DNA of 10,784 nucleotides. Source: Cyclobacteriaceae bacterium. GTDB taxonomy: Bacteria > Bacteroidota > Bacteroidia > Cytophagales > Cyclobacteriaceae. The notes under the pieces are model-generated. The model had not been told where the DNA came from. It made no database searches and was given only the letters and a program-made list of their open reading frames with translations. The position numbers and the translations under genes were made by a program. Of the stretch, positions 2,806 through 10,784 are shown piece after piece; the stretch's first letter is position 1; every line of letters begins with the position of its first letter. The stretch is taken from assembly GCA_013140395.1 (NCBI GenBank), contig JABFSY010000282.1, forward strand, positions 1-10,784. Direction: 5' to 3'.

Positions 2806-3138
2806 ATGAAAGGATCCAACCTAGGAGAGTTTGAAGAATTGGTATTGCTAACGATTGCAGCACTCATGAGCGATGCATATAGCGTGGGCATTTGTGATGA
2901 GCTGGAACGACAAACAGGCAGGACTGTAAAACTGGGTGTTGTGCATGCAGTATTGAACAGGCTTGAAGAAAAAGGATTTGTTAAGAGTAAATTGGGTGAG
3001 GCGACCCAAACAAGAGGGGGTAAGCGAAAACGCTACTACTCGATCACGAGTGCCGGTAAAGCAGGACTATTAAAATCAAAAGAGGTACGCGATAATCTAT
3101 GGAATATGATTCCGAACCTTTCTTTGAATAAAATCTGA
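2806..3138 (+). CDS. PadR-family transcriptional regulator
   Basis: This is a small (110 aa) winged-helix repressor. Residues ~8-90 match the PadR N-terminal domain: the helix FEELVLLTIAALMSDAYSVG, the recognition-helix region VKLGVVHAVLNRLEEKGFVKS, and a basic beta-wing TRGGKRKRYYSITSAG. Only a short C-terminal helix (~85-100) follows, as in the short PadR class that dimerises through this helix. The start ATG is preceded by AT-rich sequence without a Shine-Dalgarno, which is normal for Bacteroidota. Its TGA overlaps the permease ATG by one base (TGATG), so the two are almost certainly co-transcribed and translationally coupled. By analogy with PadR/permease pairs elsewhere it probably represses this operon; the inducing signal is unknown. 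The family call is firm, the target is inferred. Confidence 0.9.
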   Translation: MKGSNLGEFEELVLLTIAALMSDAYSVGICDELERQTGRTVKLGVVHAVLNRLEEKGFVKSKLGEATQTRGGKRKRYYSITSAGKAGLLKSKEVRDNLWNMIPNLSLNKI

Positions 3139-5771
3139 TGAAAGACGTTCCAAAACAATCTCCCCCGAATTGGGCTCAGCAGTTTCTTGCTTGGTATTGC
3201 AAGCCCGAGCTTCTAGAAGATCTGCAAGGAGACTTGAATGAATATTTCGAACGCAACTTGAAATCGCACGGAATTAAAAAAGCTAAGCTCATCTACATTA
3301 TTGACACCTTCAAATTTTTTCGCCTATACACCGTCCGCAAACCAGAATTTGTAAAAATTTTAATTAGTTGGATTATGATCGGGAACTACATTAAAACCTC
3401 GGGGCGCAGTATCGTGCGCAACAAATTGTTTTCAGCTATTAACATTGTGGGACTTGCCGTCAGCATGTCGGTGGGGTTACTACTCATCAGCTTATTACTC
3501 GATACATATTCCTACGACAAATTCCATGTGAATCATTCACGCATCTACCGTATAAACAGTCAATATCAGTACCTCGAGAACAAAGACAGAAATTTTATGG
3601 CCACCACTTCCTTGCGTGCTGCCAAGGCCATCAAAGAAACCTTTACCGTACCAGAAGAGGTAGCGATTTTACGAAACGGCTTTGGTGGCGACATGACGTT
3701 TGGAGAAAAAACCATTCCCCTCAATGGACTCTGGGCAAACGAATCCATGTTTAGTGTGTTTACTTTTCCTCTAGTTAAAGGCAATCCTGCTAACGCTTTA
3801 AAAAATCCCTACTCGGTTGTGTTAACGGAGAAAGCCGCGCACAAACTATTTGGCGATGAAGAAGCCATTGGCAAAACCATTATTCTGAACAAAGACAAAG
3901 CTTACACGATTACCGGTATTGTGCAAGACGTGCCAACTACCTCGCACATGAAATTTGAAATGCTCGGTGCTATTTCTACTCGTGAGATTACCGAAAAAGA
4001 TAACGCTGATGAATTGGCTTGGGATAATATGTGGAATACGTATGTGTACTTGAAAATGCCCGTGCAATTTGATCCCAAGCTTTTCCAAACCAATTTGGAT
4101 AACTTAAGTGCCAAAGAAAATCCGTCTGTAAAAAACACAACCATTACACTGAAGTTACAGGCTATGGACTCAATCATGGCAGGTGAGAGTTTAGGAAATC
4201 AGCTGGGACCAACGATGGGCAGCACACTGTTATGGGTATTCGCAGGACTTTCTTTTGTTGTCATATTGTCTGCTTGCTTTAACTATACAAATTTATCGGT
4301 GGCCCGTTCGTTGAAGCGCTCACGCGAAATTGGCATCCGCAAAACGATTGGTGCTTTGCGCGGGCACGTGATGGGACAGTTTGTGGTGGAGGCCATCATT
4401 ATTTCGTTCTCAGCATTAGTGGCTGCTTTTTTACTCTTCCTTGCATTGCGTCCATACTTTAAGAGCATGGAGCCAAGTTTGCAAGCATTGCTCACACTAA
4501 ATGTATCTCCTCTACTAGTCATTTGCTTCGTTGGCTTTGCCCTCTTTATAGGTGTTGCGGCTGGGCTTTTTCCTGCATTGTTCTTCTCGCGAATCAATGC
4601 GGTGCAGGTATTGAAGGGCTCGAGCACTACTAAGGGTTTCAAAAAACTTACGCTGCGCAAAGCACTGATTGTATTTCAATATACTATTTCACTAATACTG
4701 ATAACGGCCACGCTTATCATGTACAAGCAGTACAAACACTACATGAATTTTGATTTGGGATTTTCCACGGAAAATATTCTGAATATACGGCTGCAAGGAA
4801 ACAAAGCTGAAATACTCAAAAAAGAACTAAATGAATTACCCGAAGTAAAAGGAATATCTCTATCGGGTATGATCACAAGCGTAGGCAGCTATTGGGGCGT
4901 ACCCGTTAAAAACCCGAACAATCCTGAAGATTCACTTTCTATTGCCTTCAATGTAGTAGATGAAAATTATATCCCTCTACACGATCATCATTTGCTAGCC
5001 GGTAAAAATTTTACTGTTCTCTCGGATTCTGCTGTTGAGAGTGAAGTGATTGTGAACGAGCAGGTGTTGAAACGATTCAATTTGCCGAAAGACCCAACTC
5101 TATCTATCGGTGAGATATTGAGCGTAACGGGCAAAGAACTGCGCATTGTTGGAGTAATGAGAGATTTTCAATATGGACGTGCTAACAACGAAACAGGAAA
5201 AGAAACAATTTTTAGATACTCGAGAAAAGACGCTCAGCATCTGAATGTGAAATTACTTTCTAATGACCTACCAGCCACCTATGCTAAGATTGAAACCATT
5301 TGGAAAAAATTAGACACGGTTCATGCCTTTGAAGCCAAATTCTACGATGATGAAATAGAGGAATCGTTCAAAGGTTTATCAGCCAGCATGAAGTTAGCGG
5401 GGGCCATCGCCTTTCTGGCTGTTTGCATTGCCTCATTAGGTTTGCTGGGCATGGTGGTTTTCACGACAGAAACACGTTTAAAAGAAATCAGCATCCGCAA
5501 AGTAATGGGTGCTACTGAAGGTGGGTTGGTCTATCTATTGGGCCGTGGCTTTTTTATTTTGCTTGGCATTGCTGCTCTGATTGCACTGCCACTGACGTAT
5601 TTCTTCTTCGAGCAAATCATGTTACCGAAAATTGCGAACCATGCGCCACTTGGTTTATTTGAAGGAGTCATTGCCGTGATGGCCGTCATGACGATTGCCT
5701 TATTGATGATTGGCTCGCAAACTCTGAAAGTAGCAAAGGCAAATCCTGCAGAGGTGTTGAAGAATGAGTAG
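3138..5771 (+). CDS. ABC transporter permease of the MacB/FtsX type with N-terminal prefix domain
   Basis: This 877-residue inner-membrane protein starts with a cytoplasmic prefix (residues ~8-60; PPNWAQQFLAWYCKPELLEDLQGD) seen in Bacteroidota permeases beside PadR genes. It then has a duplicated MacB/FtsX layout. TM1 is at ~98-121, followed by a large extracytoplasmic domain (~125-360), an FtsX block with TMs at ~364-383, ~415-438 and ~458-482, a second-half TM at ~508-528, a second outer domain (~530-745), and a last FtsX block with TMs at ~752-775, ~800-824 and ~841-862. The paired cytoplasmic motifs REIGIRKTIGAL (396-407) and KEISIRKVMGAT (782-793) are the hallmark of this family and contact the ATPase. 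No ATPase gene is in the window, so it is an orphan permease that must borrow one. Such proteins usually drive mechanotransmission, such as export of peptides, lipoproteins or drugs, rather than classical transmembrane passage. The substrate is unknown. Confidence 0.92.
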   Translation: MKDVPKQSPPNWAQQFLAWYCKPELLEDLQGDLNEYFERNLKSHGIKKAKLIYIIDTFKFFRLYTVRKPEFVKILISWIMIGNYIKTSGRSIVRNKLFSAINIVGLAVSMSVGLLLISLLLDTYSYDKFHVNHSRIYRINSQYQYLENKDRNFMATTSLRAAKAIKETFTVPEEVAILRNGFGGDMTFGEKTIPLNGLWANESMFSVFTFPLVKGNPANALKNPYSVVLTEKAAHKLFGDEEAIGKTIILNKDKAYTITGIVQDVPTTSHMKFEMLGAISTREITEKDNADELAWDNMWNTYVYLKMPVQFDPKLFQTNLDNLSAKENPSVKNTTITLKLQAMDSIMAGESLGNQLGPTMGSTLLWVFAGLSFVVILSACFNYTNLSVARSLKRSREIGIRKTIGALRGHVMGQFVVEAIIISFSALVAAFLLFLALRPYFKSMEPSLQALLTLNVSPLLVICFVGFALFIGVAAGLFPALFFSRINAVQVLKGSSTTKGFKKLTLRKALIVFQYTISLILITATLIMYKQYKHYMNFDLGFSTENILNIRLQGNKAEILKKELNELPEVKGISLSGMITSVGSYWGVPVKNPNNPEDSLSIAFNVVDENYIPLHDHHLLAGKNFTVLSDSAVESEVIVNEQVLKRFNLPKDPTLSIGEILSVTGKELRIVGVMRDFQYGRANNETGKETIFRYSRKDAQHLNVKLLSNDLPATYAKIETIWKKLDTVHAFEAKFYDDEIEESFKGLSASMKLAGAIAFLAVCIASLGLLGMVVFTTETRLKEISIRKVMGATEGGLVYLLGRGFFILLGIAALIALPLTYFFFEQIMLPKIANHAPLGLFEGVIAVMAVMTIALLMIGSQTLKVAKANPAEVLKNE

Positions 5772-5834
5772 ATTGTGTGAGTTGTCCAAATTTCATTAGT
5801 TCATTATTGGCGACAAATTTTTGTAGCTTTATAT

Positions 5835-6764
5835 ATGAATCGTCTGAAAGTGCGACCTGTCCTATTGTTTTGTTTTATTCTTGTTTCAAGCTGTGAAAGC
5901 AATCGAGATCCCTCACCTCTTCGTTTCTACGTGATCGGTGATTGGGGACGAATGGGCATACCCAATCAAAAAGTAGTAGCCTTTCAAATGAATGAGTGGA
6001 CTAAAAGAGAAAATCCAAAGTTCATCATCTCCACAGGAGACAACTTTTATTATACTGGCGTGACCGATACCAACGATCCCCATTGGCAGGAATCATTTGA
6101 AAAAGTTTACAATGGAGAGAATCTTGTAAGGAAGCCCTGGCAGATTTCACTGGGCAATCATGATTACTCGGGTAATGTGGAGGCGGAAATCGCCTACAGT
6201 AAAATTAGTCCGCGATGGAAATTACCATCCCGCTACTACTCCATAGTCGAAACCGTCAATGATGGCTCGCGTGTTCGTTTTATTTTCATAGATACAAGCC
6301 CTTTTGAAAAGAGTTACTACCAAATTGCTGAGTTGAAAGACAAAGTAAAGGCGCAAGACACTACCTATCAGAAAAAATGGCTGGATAGTTTAACAGCACT
6401 CAATGATGTAGACAGGAAAATCGTGGTTGGCCATCACCATATCTATACCGGTGGCGTGCGCAAAAATGATCCGAACTCGGTGAGAACTTCGCTTGAACCC
6501 ATATTCGCTAAAAACAAAGTGAATATTTATTTCTGTGGACATGAGCATGATCTGCAACATTTGAAGGCAAGCGACAAACCTACTCACTATTTTCTATCGG
6601 GTGCTGGTGCTGACCTACGGCCAACGGGCACAATCAACGAATCTCTTTTTTCGGCTTCCGTACAGGGTTTTATGAGTGTTTCCATCCTTCGAAAAACGCT
6701 TGATGTTAAGATGGTGGATTTTAATGGCAATATTATTTATAGCACGCAGTTGGCTCCTCAATAG
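5835..6764 (+). CDS. Lipoprotein metallophosphoesterase, purple / tartrate-resistant acid phosphatase-like
   Basis: The 309-aa protein begins with a lipoprotein signal: MNRLKVR, a hydrophobic core, and lipobox V-S-S-C with the lipidated Cys at residue 20. The rest is a calcineurin-fold phosphatase in which every dinuclear metal ligand of mammalian ACP5/uteroferrin has a counterpart: D36 in GDWG, D69 and Y72 in GDNFYY, N108 and H109 in GNHD, H200 in VGHHHIY, and H236/H238 in CGHEHD. The Tyr that gives purple acid phosphatases their Fe(III) charge-transfer colour is therefore present. It probably hydrolyses phosphate monoesters or phosphoproteins in the periplasm or at the outer membrane for phosphate scavenging. 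It starts 63 bp after the permease stop; I see no strong promoter, so readthrough from the padR operon is possible. It converges with the aldehyde dehydrogenase gene across a 23-bp gap (6765-6787) that has no recognisable terminator hairpin. Confidence 0.9.
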   Translation: MNRLKVRPVLLFCFILVSSCESNRDPSPLRFYVIGDWGRMGIPNQKVVAFQMNEWTKRENPKFIISTGDNFYYTGVTDTNDPHWQESFEKVYNGENLVRKPWQISLGNHDYSGNVEAEIAYSKISPRWKLPSRYYSIVETVNDGSRVRFIFIDTSPFEKSYYQIAELKDKVKAQDTTYQKKWLDSLTALNDVDRKIVVGHHHIYTGGVRKNDPNSVRTSLEPIFAKNKVNIYFCGHEHDLQHLKASDKPTHYFLSGAGADLRPTGTINESLFSASVQGFMSVSILRKTLDVKMVDFNGNIIYSTQLAPQ

Positions 6765-6787
6765 ATCTGGGCGAAAACTGAAAAATA

Positions 6788-8152
6788 CTACTTCTTCAAA
6801 TGATATGCCTTGGTTTTCGTAAATGCCCTCAAGCCCACGTGTGAAAGTGTAGCCCCAAAACCCGAATGATTCCGCCCACTCCAAGGTAGCGCAGCACTTA
6901 CGCGGTCGCAGCAATTCCAATAGCCTGTACCGGAATTGATTTGGCATAAAATATTTTCTGCTCGTGATTGACTAGAAGAGTAAACCGATGCTGTTAATCC
7001 GTACTCAGTGTCTTTCATTAGTTGAGTCGCTTCATCATCATCCTTAACTTTCATAATACCTATGATGGGGCCAAAAGATTCCTCGCACATTACACTCATT
7101 TGATGGTTGGCCTTGGTAATTACGGTTGGTTCAAAATAATAACCAGTTCCTGCCATTCGCTTCCCTCCTGTCATTACGTTGCCTCCTTTTTCAATGGCAT
7201 CCTTTATTTGACTTTCTAAAAAAGAAACTTGCTCCTTTCTGCTCAACGGCCCAATGTATACACCTACTTCTGTTGGCTGTCCAATCTTCCATGACTTTAC
7301 TTCCTTAACAAATTCACTCACATACTCGTCATAAACTTTTTCGTGAACATAAATTCGTTCTACGGCACAACAACTTTGGCCGTTATTGTAAAACGCACCA
7401 TCAGCAGTGCCCGCTGCAACCGCCTTCACATCCGCAATATCATCGGCTACATACAATGGATCTTTGCCACCTAACTCCAGTTGACAAGGAACCATCTTGT
7501 GCGCCACTTTTTCGTAAATGTATTTTCCCGTTTTATAAGATCCTGTGAAAAAATATCCGTTAAACGGAAGGTCCAACAATAGTTCACCAACAGCTTTCGC
7601 ACCAATGGCAACATGAAACACGTTAATTGGTACTCCCGATTGCTTCAACAACTTCTCCATTTCTATACCGGTTAAAGTCGAATACTCAGAAGGCTTATAC
7701 ATAACGGCATTGCCAGCCAACAAGGCGGGAACAAAAACATTTACGCCTACAAGGTAAGGATAGTTCCAGGCAGAAATGTTGCAAACCACGCCTAACGGCT
7801 CGTATGAAATCCGTTCCGTGAGATTTCCTTCTTGTGTCATCACTTCATCCGACAAATATTTTGCAGCATTGTCGGTCAGCCATTTGATACGCGCTCGCGC
7901 TCCGTTGATTTCGTTGCGAGATTGCTGTAGGGGCTTACCCACCTCCGATGTAAGGATAGAAGCCAACGATTCGCTATTCTTCTCCAACAAATCAGAAAAA
8001 GCCCGAAGAGTTTCTATTCGTTTTGTGAGCGGAACTTTTTGCCAATTCGCTTGAGCGGTTTGCAGCAACTTGAATTTTTGATTGACAGAATCAGGTGAAT
8101 CTTCCTGAAGATCTCGAATAACTTCTTCGTTGGCCGGATTAACGATTTTCAT
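6788..8152 (-). CDS. NAD(P)-dependent aldehyde dehydrogenase (PuuC-like role)
   Basis: This 454-residue aldehyde dehydrogenase is slightly shorter than the ~480-500 of many members. The full catalytic set is visible: N130 in the WNYP motif, E226 in LELGGKDP, nucleophile C261 in NNGQSC, and the NAD-ribose-binding E358/F360 in EESFGP. The nucleophile has a second Cys beside it (C262), and the C-terminal substrate-facing loop carries another pair (YWNCCDRV, ~411-418). It oxidises an aldehyde to the acid using NAD(P)+. It is the last gene of a tight cluster, starting 9 bp after the gamma-glutamyl hydrolase stop. In that setting its likely substrate is a gamma-glutamylamino-aldehyde made by the neighbouring alcohol dehydrogenase. 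The enzyme class is certain; the substrate is inferred. Succinate-semialdehyde or betaine-aldehyde dehydrogenase activity are alternatives. Confidence 0.93.
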   Translation of the reverse strand: MKIVNPANEEVIRDLQEDSPDSVNQKFKLLQTAQANWQKVPLTKRIETLRAFSDLLEKNSESLASILTSEVGKPLQQSRNEINGARARIKWLTDNAAKYLSDEVMTQEGNLTERISYEPLGVVCNISAWNYPYLVGVNVFVPALLAGNAVMYKPSEYSTLTGIEMEKLLKQSGVPINVFHVAIGAKAVGELLLDLPFNGYFFTGSYKTGKYIYEKVAHKMVPCQLELGGKDPLYVADDIADVKAVAAGTADGAFYNNGQSCCAVERIYVHEKVYDEYVSEFVKEVKSWKIGQPTEVGVYIGPLSRKEQVSFLESQIKDAIEKGGNVMTGGKRMAGTGYYFEPTVITKANHQMSVMCEESFGPIIGIMKVKDDDEATQLMKDTEYGLTASVYSSSQSRAENILCQINSGTGYWNCCDRVSAALPWSGRNHSGFGATLSHVGLRAFTKTKAYHLKK

Positions 8153-8161
8153 TTCTGTGAA

Positions 8162-8857
8162 TTATAAGCTTCGCACTTCATCTAGAAAACTCTTTTTTAT
8201 AGTTGCCGTCAATGGATTGGATTGATCGTTCATTCGCTCAGGGTGCCATTGAACCAATAGTAAGTAGGAATGATTTTTAGGATCCACTCTCTCTAAGCCT
8301 TCGATCACCCCATCCTGTGAAAAACAATTCGCCACCAAACCAACACCCACATGCTTTACCGATTGGTGATGGGCACTGTTCACTTCTCCTTCAACTTTCG
8401 AGGAAATTTGATTCATCTGACTATGCGGATCAACTGAGACAGTATGATAGCGATCTCTCCCCTCGCCAAATTTAGAGTGATTAAATTTTCCAAAAGACGG
8501 TAGGTCGGGAATCAATGTGCCGCCAAAAAACACATTCGTGATTTGAAGTCCCCGACAAATGCCCAGCAAGGGTAGATTATTTTGCTGGGTATAGTTAATT
8601 ACACTTAAATCAAATTCGTCTCTTCTCTCATCTACATCATCCGGATAACAAAATTGCAGTAACTCGGGCTTGTTATAAAAACGAGGATGAACATCTTCTC
8701 CTCCCGTTAGCAAAACCCCGTGGCATTTCTTGATCTCCTCAAAGTCATTGAGTGCATAGCCTAACTTGATCACCTCCACATCTGCATCTTGAGATATCCA
8801 GGCCGCATACTTGTCATATTTACTGCAATCAGCAACGCCTATCGTTATCTTTTTCAT
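8162..8857 (-). CDS. Gamma-glutamyl hydrolase, class I amidotransferase fold (PuuD-like, peptidase C26)
   Basis: The 231-aa protein has the complete class I glutamine-amidotransferase-type triad: nucleophile C101 in the elbow GICRGLQ, then H205 and E207 in QWHPER. Family-specific features of gamma-glutamyl-gamma-aminobutyrate hydrolases are present: LLTGGEDVHPRFY (49-61), the DERRDEFDL stretch (76-84) and NSAHHQSVK (160-168). There is no signal peptide, so it is cytoplasmic. It cleaves the gamma-glutamyl amide bond to release glutamate and the processed amine or amino acid. It starts 2 bp after the alcohol dehydrogenase stop and ends 9 bp before the aldehyde dehydrogenase start, which indicates one transcript. 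In E. coli the homologous PuuD acts on gamma-glutamyl-GABA. Here the neighbours suggest gamma-glutamylglycine or a similar product instead, which is an inference from context. Confidence 0.9.
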   Translation of the reverse strand: MKKITIGVADCSKYDKYAAWISQDADVEVIKLGYALNDFEEIKKCHGVLLTGGEDVHPRFYNKPELLQFCYPDDVDERRDEFDLSVINYTQQNNLPLLGICRGLQITNVFFGGTLIPDLPSFGKFNHSKFGEGRDRYHTVSVDPHSQMNQISSKVEGEVNSAHHQSVKHVGVGLVANCFSQDGVIEGLERVDPKNHSYLLLVQWHPERMNDQSNPLTATIKKSFLDEVRSL

Positions 8858-8859
8858 TT

Positions 8860-10008
8860 TTATAGCGCCTTCAAATACAATTGCTTAAAATCTTCTCTAC
8901 TCACCGGCTTTGGATTATTGGGATGAGCAAAATCGGCAATGGCTAAGTCCGCCAATGTTTCGATGTGTTCCGGCTTGACACCAATCGCGCTAAGTTTATG
9001 AGGGATATTGATTTTGGAATTGAGTTCGAATAAATAATTGACCACTGCTTTACCCGTTTGCTCTTTTAACTCAAGTGTACTGGCAATTCTTTTGAACTTA
9101 TCTTCAAATCCTTCGATGTTGAATTCCATCCCATAAGGAATATTAACTGCATTCGCCAACCCATGATGGGTATCTAACAAAGATGACAACGGATGCGCTA
9201 ATGAATGCACTATGCCTAACCCTTTTTGAAAGGCGATGGCACCCATCAACGAAGCAATCAACATTTTGCTACGCGATTCGAGATCAGGTTTATTCACAGC
9301 TACTTCCAGCGATTGGTGAATCAGGGATATTCCTTCCAAGGCAATTCCTTCACACAAAGGATGCGGCATTTTTGCTAGATACGCTTCCATGCTGTGAGTG
9401 AGCGCGTCCATGCCGGTAGCTGCAGTGATAAACGATGGAAGCTCCATCGTTAACAAAGGGTCAGCAAAAATGATTTTTGCCAAGAGTTTAGGTGAAAAAA
9501 GAATTTTCTTTTGATGCGTAACATCATCGGCAATTATCGCACTGCGCCCGACTTCACTGCCGGTTCCCGCGGTAGTAGGAATGGTATTAAAATGGGGCAC
9601 CTCATTCGTCACAAACACATCGCCTCCAATCAGATCATCATACTTAAATAAATCCTCGCGGTGATTGATTCGTAATAGTATGGCACGTGCCACATCGATG
9701 GCTGCGCCTCCGCCAATGCCAATGATGGAATCCCGCTTTGCCTCATCAAATACATCTGTGCCTTTGTACACGTCCGACTTCACCGGGTTTTTATGGATAT
9801 CTGAAAACACTTCTACAGAAATATTCTTTGCCTTCAAACTCTCCACCATTTTTTTGAAGAATGGAAGTTGCGCTACGGTAGGATCAGTTACAACCAGCGG
9901 CTTTGATAAATTATTCTTAACGAGATAATCAGGTAGCTCATTGCTGGAACCGGCACCAAAACGGATGGTGGTAGGGAAGTTATATTGATAGATTTTATCG
10001 AAGGTCAT
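8860..10008 (-). CDS. Iron-containing (group III) alcohol dehydrogenase
   Basis: This 382-residue protein is full length for the Fe-ADH family. Metal ligands align with FucO at D201, H205, H268 and H282, in the motifs GMDALTHSMEAY and GIVHSLAHPL...THHG; the 63-residue spacing from H205 to H268 equals that of FucO. The dinucleotide-binding glycine motif reads GIGGGAAIDVAR (97-108), with Ala where most members have Ser, and PTTAGTGSEVG (144-154) follows. It interconverts an alcohol and an aldehyde with NAD(P). A 2-bp gap links it to the gamma-glutamyl hydrolase gene, and it is preceded by a 124-bp spacer after the glutamine-synthetase-like gene. In this cluster it is the natural enzyme to oxidise a gamma-glutamylated amino alcohol to the aldehyde. 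A role as 4-hydroxybutyrate or general alcohol dehydrogenase cannot be excluded. Confidence 0.92.
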   Translation of the reverse strand: MTFDKIYQYNFPTTIRFGAGSSNELPDYLVKNNLSKPLVVTDPTVAQLPFFKKMVESLKAKNISVEVFSDIHKNPVKSDVYKGTDVFDEAKRDSIIGIGGGAAIDVARAILLRINHREDLFKYDDLIGGDVFVTNEVPHFNTIPTTAGTGSEVGRSAIIADDVTHQKKILFSPKLLAKIIFADPLLTMELPSFITAATGMDALTHSMEAYLAKMPHPLCEGIALEGISLIHQSLEVAVNKPDLESRSKMLIASLMGAIAFQKGLGIVHSLAHPLSSLLDTHHGLANAVNIPYGMEFNIEGFEDKFKRIASTLELKEQTGKAVVNYLFELNSKINIPHKLSAIGVKPEHIETLADLAIADFAHPNNPKPVSREDFKQLYLKAL

Positions 10009-10035
10009 AATTCTTTGTTAACATTCTTTTATCTA

Positions 10036-10064
10036 ATTGGATATCGCATTTTGCGACCTCCAAT
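10036..10064. promoter_or_regulatory. 29-bp dyad between the GS-like gene and the alcohol dehydrogenase
   Basis: On the plus strand the arms are ATTGGA and TCGCA, a TTT centre, then TGCGA and TCCAAT. Both arm segments are exact inverted repeats, separated by a 2-base internal mismatch (TA versus CC). The dyad lies 28 bp before the alcohol dehydrogenase start, in the 10009-10132 spacer. It is not followed by a T-run in the direction of transcription, so it is unlikely to be an intrinsic terminator. It could be an operator for the three downstream genes or an mRNA processing/stabilising hairpin. Confidence 0.5.
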
Positions 10065-10132
10065 CTTGATTTTCATACGTTAAAGGTTGAATAAATTAAG
10101 CGTGGTTGATTTATTTTTTAGTTCACTGCGTG

Positions 10133-10784
10133 TCAAATAATCTCAAAATACCTTTTAACCTCCCAGTCTGTCACTGCTTTCAGATGTTGCCTCCACTCCC
10201 ACTCACGTGTTTGGGTAAAGTGTTCTACAAATTGCTGTCCCAAAATTTCTCTAGCCACTACTGACTGTTTCATCTTCTGAGTGGCTTCATGCAGATTTCC
10301 TGGCAAGACACCATTAGAAAAATCCTTATACCCATTTCCCACTGTGGCAGGTTGTTTTAACTTCAATTTTTTCTTGATTCCGTACAACCCAGAAGCCAAC
10401 GCAGCAGCTATCGCCAAATAAGGATTTACATCCGCACCTATAACTCTCGTCTCTAACCGACATGATTTACTTCCGCTTGCCAGCACACGTAAAGCAACTG
10501 TGCGATTATCAATTCCCCACGTCAATGTGGTGGGTGCCCAGGCGCCTTCTACTAATCGCTTGTAACTATTGATTGTTGGCGCATACATGGGAAGCAAATG
10601 TGGTAGACAAAACAATTGCCCTGCGATATAACTCTTCATCACTTCACTCATGTGATGCTTGTCTTTCGACTCATAAAAAAGATTCTTCTTACCTGCTTTA
10701 TCCCACAAACTTTGATGTACGTGTCCACCACAGCCCGGGAGAGATTCACTTATCTTCGACATAAAAGTGGCCATTACTCCATGC
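10133..10784 (-). CDS. Glutamine-synthetase-like gamma-glutamylamide synthetase (PuuA/GlnA3/GlnA4-like), C-terminal part
   Basis: The frame is open to the window edge (H-G-V before the first visible Met at 10774), so the gene starts outside. The visible ~217 residues are the C-terminal half of a glutamine synthetase catalytic domain: the ATP/Glu-binding GCGGHVHQSLWD, the NSYKRLVEGAWAP stretch, the TWGIDNRTVALRV strand, and LETRVIGADVNPYLAIAAAL. The pattern fits the amine-glutamylating branch (PuuA, IpuC, GlnA3/GlnA4-like) better than housekeeping GlnA: it has APTTLTWGIDNRT and lacks the usual RIP-type active-site tail after the NR motif. It would join glutamate to an amine using ATP. It is co-oriented with the alcohol dehydrogenase, hydrolase and aldehyde dehydrogenase genes, which supports this. 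The family is clear; the substrate is inferred, and a true ammonia-using synthetase cannot be ruled out from a partial sequence. Confidence 0.88.
   Translation of the reverse strand, partial: HGVMATFMSKISESLPGCGGHVHQSLWDKAGKKNLFYESKDKHHMSEVMKSYIAGQLFCLPHLLPMYAPTINSYKRLVEGAWAPTTLTWGIDNRTVALRVLASGSKSCRLETRVIGADVNPYLAIAAALASGLYGIKKKLKLKQPATVGNGYKDFSNGVLPGNLHEATQKMKQSVVAREILGQQFVEHFTQTREWEWRQHLKAVTDWEVKRYFEII

Follow-up and report, generated by a model that had tools for sequence, protein, structure and literature searches.

The window analyzed here, the whole of contig C269 (JABFSY010000282.1; 10,784 nt) of a Cyclobacteriaceae bacterium, carries a gene cluster that raises a question of substrate: what is processed by a glutamine synthetase (GS)-like ligase whose gene is followed, on the same strand, by genes for an Fe-type alcohol dehydrogenase (ADH), a PuuD-like hydrolase and an aldehyde dehydrogenase (ALDH)? 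Our answer is that the cluster very probably specifies a B12-independent catabolism of ethanolamine, which would pass through gamma-glutamylethanolamide and end in glutamate and glycine. The assembly (GCA_013140395.1) comprises 532 contigs with a total of 3.03 Mb and is 81% complete.

A first-pass annotation had described four co-directional genes in this order, and both open reading frames (ORFs) and Pfam bear this out, with matches far above cut-off for all four proteins. The ligase and ADH genes are separated by 124 bp, the ADH and hydrolase genes by 2 bp, and the hydrolase and ALDH genes by 9 bp. In order of transcription the features are:

10133-10783, minus strand: GS-like gamma-glutamyl-amine ligase, C-terminal 216 amino acids (aa), open at the contig end (PF00120, 240 bits)
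10009-10132, minus strand: ligase-ADH spacer, 124 bp, with a hairpin at 10037-10063 (folding and comparison with relatives)
8860-10008, minus strand: Fe-type ADH, 382 aa, proposed gamma-glutamylethanolamide dehydrogenase (PF00465/PF25137)
8162-8857, minus strand: PuuD-like hydrolase of class-I glutamine amidotransferase (GATase) fold, peptidase C26, 231 aa, proposed gamma-glutamylglycine amidohydrolase (PF07722, 138 bits)
6788-8152, minus strand: ALDH, 454 aa, proposed gamma-glutamylaminoacetaldehyde dehydrogenase (PF00171, 419 bits)

The catalytic residues had been called intact, and the expected motifs are indeed present in all four proteins: GHVHQ, NRT and NPYLA in the ligase; metal ligands D201, H205, H268 and H282 in the ADH; Cys101 (GICRG) and HPE 205-207 (His205/Glu207) in the hydrolase; Glu226 (ELGGK) and the Cys of QSCC in the ALDH. 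These are the residues with catalytic roles in the respective families, and the four ADH ligands are spaced as in FucO.

A search of the genome for GS found three places: the window, a 752-aa frame on contig C223, and the extreme end of contig C176. This end encodes the first 193 residues of the ligase (L004:12702-13280), whose coding region shares 4 bp with the end of an APC permease gene. When both contig ends are mapped on the close relative L040, the last 1500 bases of C176 fall at 4717-6216 and the window end starts at 6344, with ∼127 bases between C176 and C269 unassembled. The whole gene order is present in one piece in L040 and likewise in L039, where two additional ORFs separate the ligase from the ADH.

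Of particular interest is the permease. An amine permease upstream had been among the things to look for, and the protein encoded on the adjoining contig scores 409.7 bits against TIGR00908, the ethanolamine permease model (cut-off 381.75; next model 144 bits). In a scan of 39 cluster permeases, every one matched TIGR00908 with an E value no worse than 1e-30 (1e-139 for the strongest), against 7.8e-50 at best for two other models; among the 39, the comparison with the cut-off itself was made for the window genome's own protein only. Plasmid relatives of the Pedobacter permease (25 of 966 listed) include 21 annotated as eat, one as putative ethanolamine permease and three without annotation; the eat labels may themselves derive from TIGR00908. 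Four plasmid permease loci were opened: eutBC lies alongside in three and a primary-amine oxidase in one. A permease-EutB-EutC row is also found in G014, a genome from the window's genus (permease 519 bits to TIGR00908). Thus the importer of the B12 route in one species belongs to the same family as the one that accompanies glutamylation genes in another.

The computed evidence covers which genes are present and in what order, how far they are conserved and co-occur, the family of the permease, the missing ammonia-flap residue and the fold of the ligase; the reactions, their substrate and cofactors, and co-transcription we infer. An Eat-type permease would import ethanolamine. The ligase would spend ATP to place it on the side-chain carboxyl of glutamate, giving gamma-glutamylethanolamide with the amine masked; the ADH would convert the hydroxyl to an aldehyde, the ALDH would take the aldehyde to gamma-glutamylglycine, and the hydrolase would release glutamate and glycine. 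The net effect would be the conversion of ethanolamine to glycine, with a gain of two NAD(P)H at the cost of one ATP. The gamma-glutamylation chemistry proposed in the first-pass annotation is strengthened by the finding of an ethanolamine-type permease, and is very likely right.

Conservation and co-occurrence of the cluster

Loci were retrieved with the hydrolase as sole query (best 80 of 195 relatives). The order permease-ligase-ADH-hydrolase-ALDH, on one strand, recurs in 34 of the 80 (two of these, L112 and L113, are in one record). Because a search with the hydrolase alone returned the same five-gene order so often, the arrangement is not one of chance; the survey of Bacteroidota that had been called for thus finds it conserved. 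Five further loci lack only a recognised permease, two consist of ADH-hydrolase-ALDH, two of hydrolase-ALDH, and two are without a called hydrolase ORF. Carriers of all five genes include Pedobacter, Flavobacterium (two loci), Solitalea, Sphingobacterium, Aquirufa, Flavihumibacter, Agriterribacter and Paraflavisolibacter. Another 15 regions from related genomes, some from assemblies also represented among the 80 loci, comprise seven with all five genes, three with ADH-hydrolase-ALDH, one with hydrolase-ALDH and four with the hydrolase alone.

Co-occurrence was analyzed in 58 related genomes (thresholds: ADH E 1e-60, permease E 1e-40, hydrolase E 1e-3). The ADH is present in 12, the ligase in 14 (13 without G045, whose protein is only 33% identical), the permease in 19 and the hydrolase in 17. 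Ligase, permease and hydrolase accompany the ADH in 12/12 genomes; for ADH and ligase the association has a Fisher P of 1.5e-11, uncorrected for kinship. Two genomes have the cluster in two parts, permease and ligase being apart from ADH-hydrolase-ALDH (on another contig in G003; ∼19 kb off in G005): both halves are kept despite their separation. Of 345 genomes drawn evenly from across the phylum, 10 match the ADH query at E 1e-60, seven of them (the window's own included) with at least 67% identity. The six others all have permease-ligase-ADH-hydrolase-ALDH, and in one, G090, hydrolase and ALDH are naturally fused in a 699-aa open frame (L156 7943-10042).

Some hydrolases stand alone. Those of L027, L028 and L033 are 54–57% identical to that of the window and follow an rpoC-like ORF (called by eye in L028 and by ORF lengths in L027 and L033) and a 107-aa ORF; genes for an ADH, ALDH or ligase were not recognised nearby. 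The ADH-hydrolase-ALDH part in G003 and G005 lies near the same rpoC-like gene, and for this reason the lone hydrolases may be leftovers; they may also have another task. A lone ligase was seen in G050, with neither ADH nor permease nearby, in a genome that carries EutBC (L147).

The ligase and the choice of substrate

The gene had been read as something other than an ammonia-using GlnA, and three results agree. The ammonia-flap Glu of GlnA, present in the E. coli protein, is Trp in the window ligase and in 46/46 Bacteroidota ligase ORFs; it is Phe in two Paracoccus ligases and Trp in the annotated IpuC of Paenarthrobacter aurescens TC1. Three full-length relatives of the ligase score 222–234 bits against the GlnA model TIGR00653 (231 in L039), about half of the cut-off of 429. 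In a tree of 29 rows the window ligase (a half-length fragment) does not stand beside E. coli GlnA, which, like PuuA, has a very long branch and an unsure position. D50 and Y179 of Salmonella GS were tried as further ammonia-site tests and dropped: by eye, Asp and Tyr align nearby in most rows, PuuA included. The flap Glu is therefore the sole ammonia-site criterion applied.

The same tree, which had three actinobacterial rows with a GlnA4-type neighbourhood and left out Streptomyces coelicolor GlnA4 and Csal_0679 of Chromohalobacter salexigens, resolves two sets. One (17 rows, 100/99) unites the Bacteroidota ligases with those of Photobacterium, Legionella, Burkholderia, Rhizobium, Paracoccus versutus and Shinella. 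The other (9 rows, 96/93) holds the ligases of P. albus, P. alcaliphilus, Sinorhizobium, G235, actinobacteria with a linked short-chain dehydrogenase (SDR) and Allomeiothermus, together with that of G045. Two ligase clades thus appear to be tied to one Fe-ADH chemistry. A Foldseek search with the ligase model places Csal_0679 among the nearest solved structures.

Could the same chemistry serve a different compound? The main amino alcohol might be 3-aminopropanol, alaninol, serinol or 1-amino-2-propanol, with ethanolamine a minor substrate or unused. The enzyme set would suit every primary amine that ends in a hydroxyl, the ligases group apart from the TRAP-linked clade of Paracoccus, and an annotated IpuC with an SDR branches next to them in the tree, at a fork of weak resolution. 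However, ethanolamine is indicated both by the family of the permease and by its eutBC neighbours, and on chemical grounds 1-amino-2-propanol should give a ketone, leaving the ALDH without substrate; we regard this alternative as unlikely. A polyamine pathway of the Puu kind, in which the ligase would act on putrescine or another diamine and the ADH would serve some other process, we hold to be very unlikely. A PuuD-like hydrolase and an ALDH are common to both pathways, and PuuD is the second-best NCBIfam model of the hydrolase, albeit at 50.5 bits against an equivalog cut-off of 266. Against this, no PuuB-like oxidase lies directly upstream, where the first-pass annotation had asked for one to be sought: that place is taken by the remainder of the ligase gene and by the gene of the ethanolamine-type permease, and the 81%-complete genome contains only two short, weak matches to PuuB (24.0 and 18.8 bits). 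Moreover, the model of gamma-glutamylputrescine synthetase (PuuA; NF045547, cut-off 650) gives 201 bits for the ligase relative in L039 (193 and 190 in two others), and the ligase is present in all 12 ADH-bearing relatives.

Still less probable is a role of the GS-like gene as the glutamine synthetase of the cell, amid a loose collection of neighbours. GlnA does remain the best NCBIfam model of the whole ligase, but the low score and the invariant flap Trp described above speak against such a role, as do the second GS-matching frame on C223 and the conserved, patchy nature of the cluster. An operon for the oxidation of choline or another alcohol, with a GbsB-like ADH and a ligase for nitrogen recovery, is scarcely credible: the ADH matches the GbsB choline dehydrogenase model at 243 bits (cut-off 550), yet the 4-hydroxybutyrate dehydrogenase model scores it higher (320 bits), the permease is of the ethanolamine type, and a quaternary amine cannot be gamma-glutamylated.

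Several observations nevertheless weigh against ethanolamine catabolism as the function of the cluster. The permease and half of the ligase are on another contig, whose junction with the window is deduced from mapping on L040. Among the 80 hydrolase loci 35 are without any other recognised cluster gene nearby; the permease occurs without the cluster in G014, G038, G045, G052 and G057 (G004 and G028 have it in pieces at contig ends), and a ligase (63% identical; L148 6409-7767) is present without the ADH in G050. Mutual exclusion with EutB is not significant in the 58 relatives (0/12 ADH-bearing genomes against 5/46 others, P 0.57) or in the phylum draw (0/7 against 8/338, P 1), and our reading makes no use of it. 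All four window proteins score below the cut-offs of the listed NCBIfam models (for the ALDH, 25 of 41 listed; best 356 against 521 bits), as do the three full-length ligase relatives. Two of the three ammonia-site criteria of the GlnA4 type do not discriminate among these ligases, and the top Foldseek match of the ligase model is 11zs rather than 5dm3 (Csal_0679). The Bacteroidota ligases group apart from the Paracoccus TRAP-linked and actinobacterial SDR-linked ligases, and the window ADH is only 36–39% identical to the two Paracoccus ADHs; for these reasons the substrate is not securely transferable. Finally, we found neither enzyme assays nor growth experiments for any member of the Bacteroidota.

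Ethanolamine from membrane phospholipids is a common source of nitrogen and carbon, and the route by which it is best known to be used depends on adenosylcobalamin. If our reading is true, then Pedobacter, Flavobacterium, Solitalea, Sphingobacterium and Aquirufa carry a compact B12-free route, and permease-ligase-Fe-ADH is a marker suited to counts in metagenomes. Candidate functions would also follow for four proteins that lie below every listed NCBIfam cut-off: a GS-like ligase, an Fe-ADH, an ALDH and a C26 hydrolase. Test organisms would be at hand, since Flavobacterium is named among ethanolamine users in a 2022 review (PMC9397018) and contributes two five-gene loci.

The B12 riboswitch, the spacer and neighbouring genes

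Upstream of the permease, contig C176 carries a cobalamin riboswitch (8927-9127; 102 bits, gathering threshold 31.5). It is followed on one strand (L004 8927-11324) by genes for a BtuB-like TonB receptor, a 62-codon DUF5522 protein and the permease; the best NCBIfam model of the receptor is the B12 receptor, below cut-off (154 against 600 bits). The row headed by the riboswitch is also present in L039, L040 and L024, and in only these four among 32 different loci scanned, some of which are from the same genome (L041, judged by length and matches to be the same record as L024, was left out). The next relatives, L025 and L026, have a different gene upstream. A terminator scan of L004 lists none between the DUF5522 gene and the permease, and folding of this gap in three sequences revealed no common strong hairpin (z -0.2, -2.5 and -1.3); the ∼50–64 bp before the permease leave room for a terminator or a promoter. 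That the row from riboswitch to ALDH is, in the window's lineage, a single transcript shut off by plentiful B12 is conceivable, though we consider it doubtful. In other bacteria the B12-independent metE is controlled by a B12 riboswitch; were the single transcript real, this would be a B12-sparing catabolic operon read in the same manner.

The 124-bp spacer between ligase and ADH folds with a z of -3.4, and a regulatory hairpin was therefore a candidate. It was rejected. The palindrome at 10037-10063 occurs once in the genome at up to three mismatches, it recurs inside an ORF6N gene of L024/L041 (identity confirmed by Pfam for L024) and the corresponding ORF of L026, and the spacer shares 30–32 nt with those genes at 91–93% identity. 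On these grounds we interpret the hairpin as what is left of an ORF6N-domain gene, which is still found at this place in close relatives. The same junction is a point of insertion in other relatives: L029 has DUF1016/YhcG nuclease-like and DUF4184 genes (10010-11763; Pfam), L039 an ORF6N-like ORF (by eye) and a 181-aa ORF without assigned family (6596-7830), and L058 a 246-aa ORF resembling, by eye, the DUF4184 gene (3147-3887).

Elsewhere in the window, a PadR-type regulator gene overlaps by one base that of an ADOP/MacB-like duplicated permease (2806-5771), an ordinary arrangement. The gene at 5835-6764, convergent with the operon, encodes a calcineurin-like metallophosphoesterase that, judged by eye, probably has a lipoprotein signal: a phosphatase adjoining a putative ethanolamine operon.

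Comparison with known systems

The closest parallels are the gamma-glutamylation systems of Proteobacteria. As reported for Phaeobacter sp. MED193 (Westermann 2023, PMC10132767), the gene order there is EtoV, EtoW, EtoX, ethanolamine gamma-glutamylase, ALDH and gamma-glutamylethanolamide dehydrogenase (EtoVWX-ETAGA-GAADDH-GETADH, plus GGAH), and the last four of those proteins in the row are more abundant on phosphorylethanolamine. For C. salexigens and Agrobacterium C58 that study refers to Vetting 2015; according to two further papers (PMC4646407, PMC12410723), Csal_0678, numbered next to Csal_0679, binds ethanolamine (PDB 4uab). We found a comparable row in Paracoccus alcaliphilus (TRAP-small, TRAP-large, a binding protein with 608 bits to 4uab, GS, ALDH, Fe-ADH) and, by annotation, in P. 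albus, both on plasmids. The order of the two Paracoccus rows is that reported for MED193, from which we infer that the last MED193 enzyme is probably an Fe-ADH.

Further Proteobacteria have similar sets: Eat (553 bits), GS, ALDH, Fe-ADH and GATase in Photobacterium sp. GJ3; GS, ALDH, Fe-ADH and GATase in Legionella lytica and Photobacterium sp. DA100. The ADHs of Legionella, Photobacterium and Shinella are 38–41% identical to that of the window and ∼48–52% identical to that of P. alcaliphilus. The idea that an Fe-ADH is a Bacteroidota speciality was accordingly rejected. Given the Paracoccus rows, the novelty of an ADH in the place of PuuB had been overstated when Puu and Streptomyces were the sole systems compared.

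The Phaeobacter and Chromohalobacter systems share with ours the proposed reactions and the parts: a GS-like ligase, an alcohol dehydrogenase, an ALDH, an amidohydrolase and a dedicated ethanolamine importer. The importer is of the TRAP type there and an Eat permease here, and the order GS-ALDH-ADH of the Phaeobacter kind contrasts with GS-ADH-hydrolase-ALDH. The Paracoccus ligases are 34% identical to that of L040, belong to the other clade and have Phe rather than Trp in the flap; no hydrolase was found in the two Paracoccus stretches opened.

In S. coelicolor, GlnA4 is a gamma-glutamylethanolamide synthetase in vitro, and its cluster, SCO1610-1615, resembles ours in the GS-like ligase, ALDH, GATase and, in other streptomycetes, permease; it differs in having a short-chain dehydrogenase in place of an Fe-ADH and Phe as the GlnA4 flap residue (Krysenko 2019, PMC6529630). 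The annotated IpuC locus of P. aurescens TC1 likewise includes a GS-like ligase (39% identical to that of L040, and with Trp in the flap), a GATase and a dehydrogenase, the latter being a short-chain enzyme, with P450 and ferredoxin neighbours. The Puu putrescine pathway of E. coli has in common with ours gamma-glutamylation as a protecting group, an ALDH and a PuuD-type hydrolase; in contrast, it employs the FAD oxidase PuuB and the aminotransferase PuuE, and PuuA is 29% identical to the ligase of L040. The short Eat-EutBC operons, one of them in the window's genus (G014), have the same permease family. Their catabolic step requires adenosylcobalamin and yields acetaldehyde, whereas a search of the window's genome (81% complete) for EutB gave 0 matches.

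The Bacteroidota form of the route was not met in the open-licence papers searched, a weak test of its absence from print. Taken together, these comparisons show that the pathway is already known from Chromohalobacter, Phaeobacter and Streptomyces, and that what differs here is the phylum, the combination of Eat permease, Fe-ADH and PuuD-like hydrolase, and a separate ligase clade.

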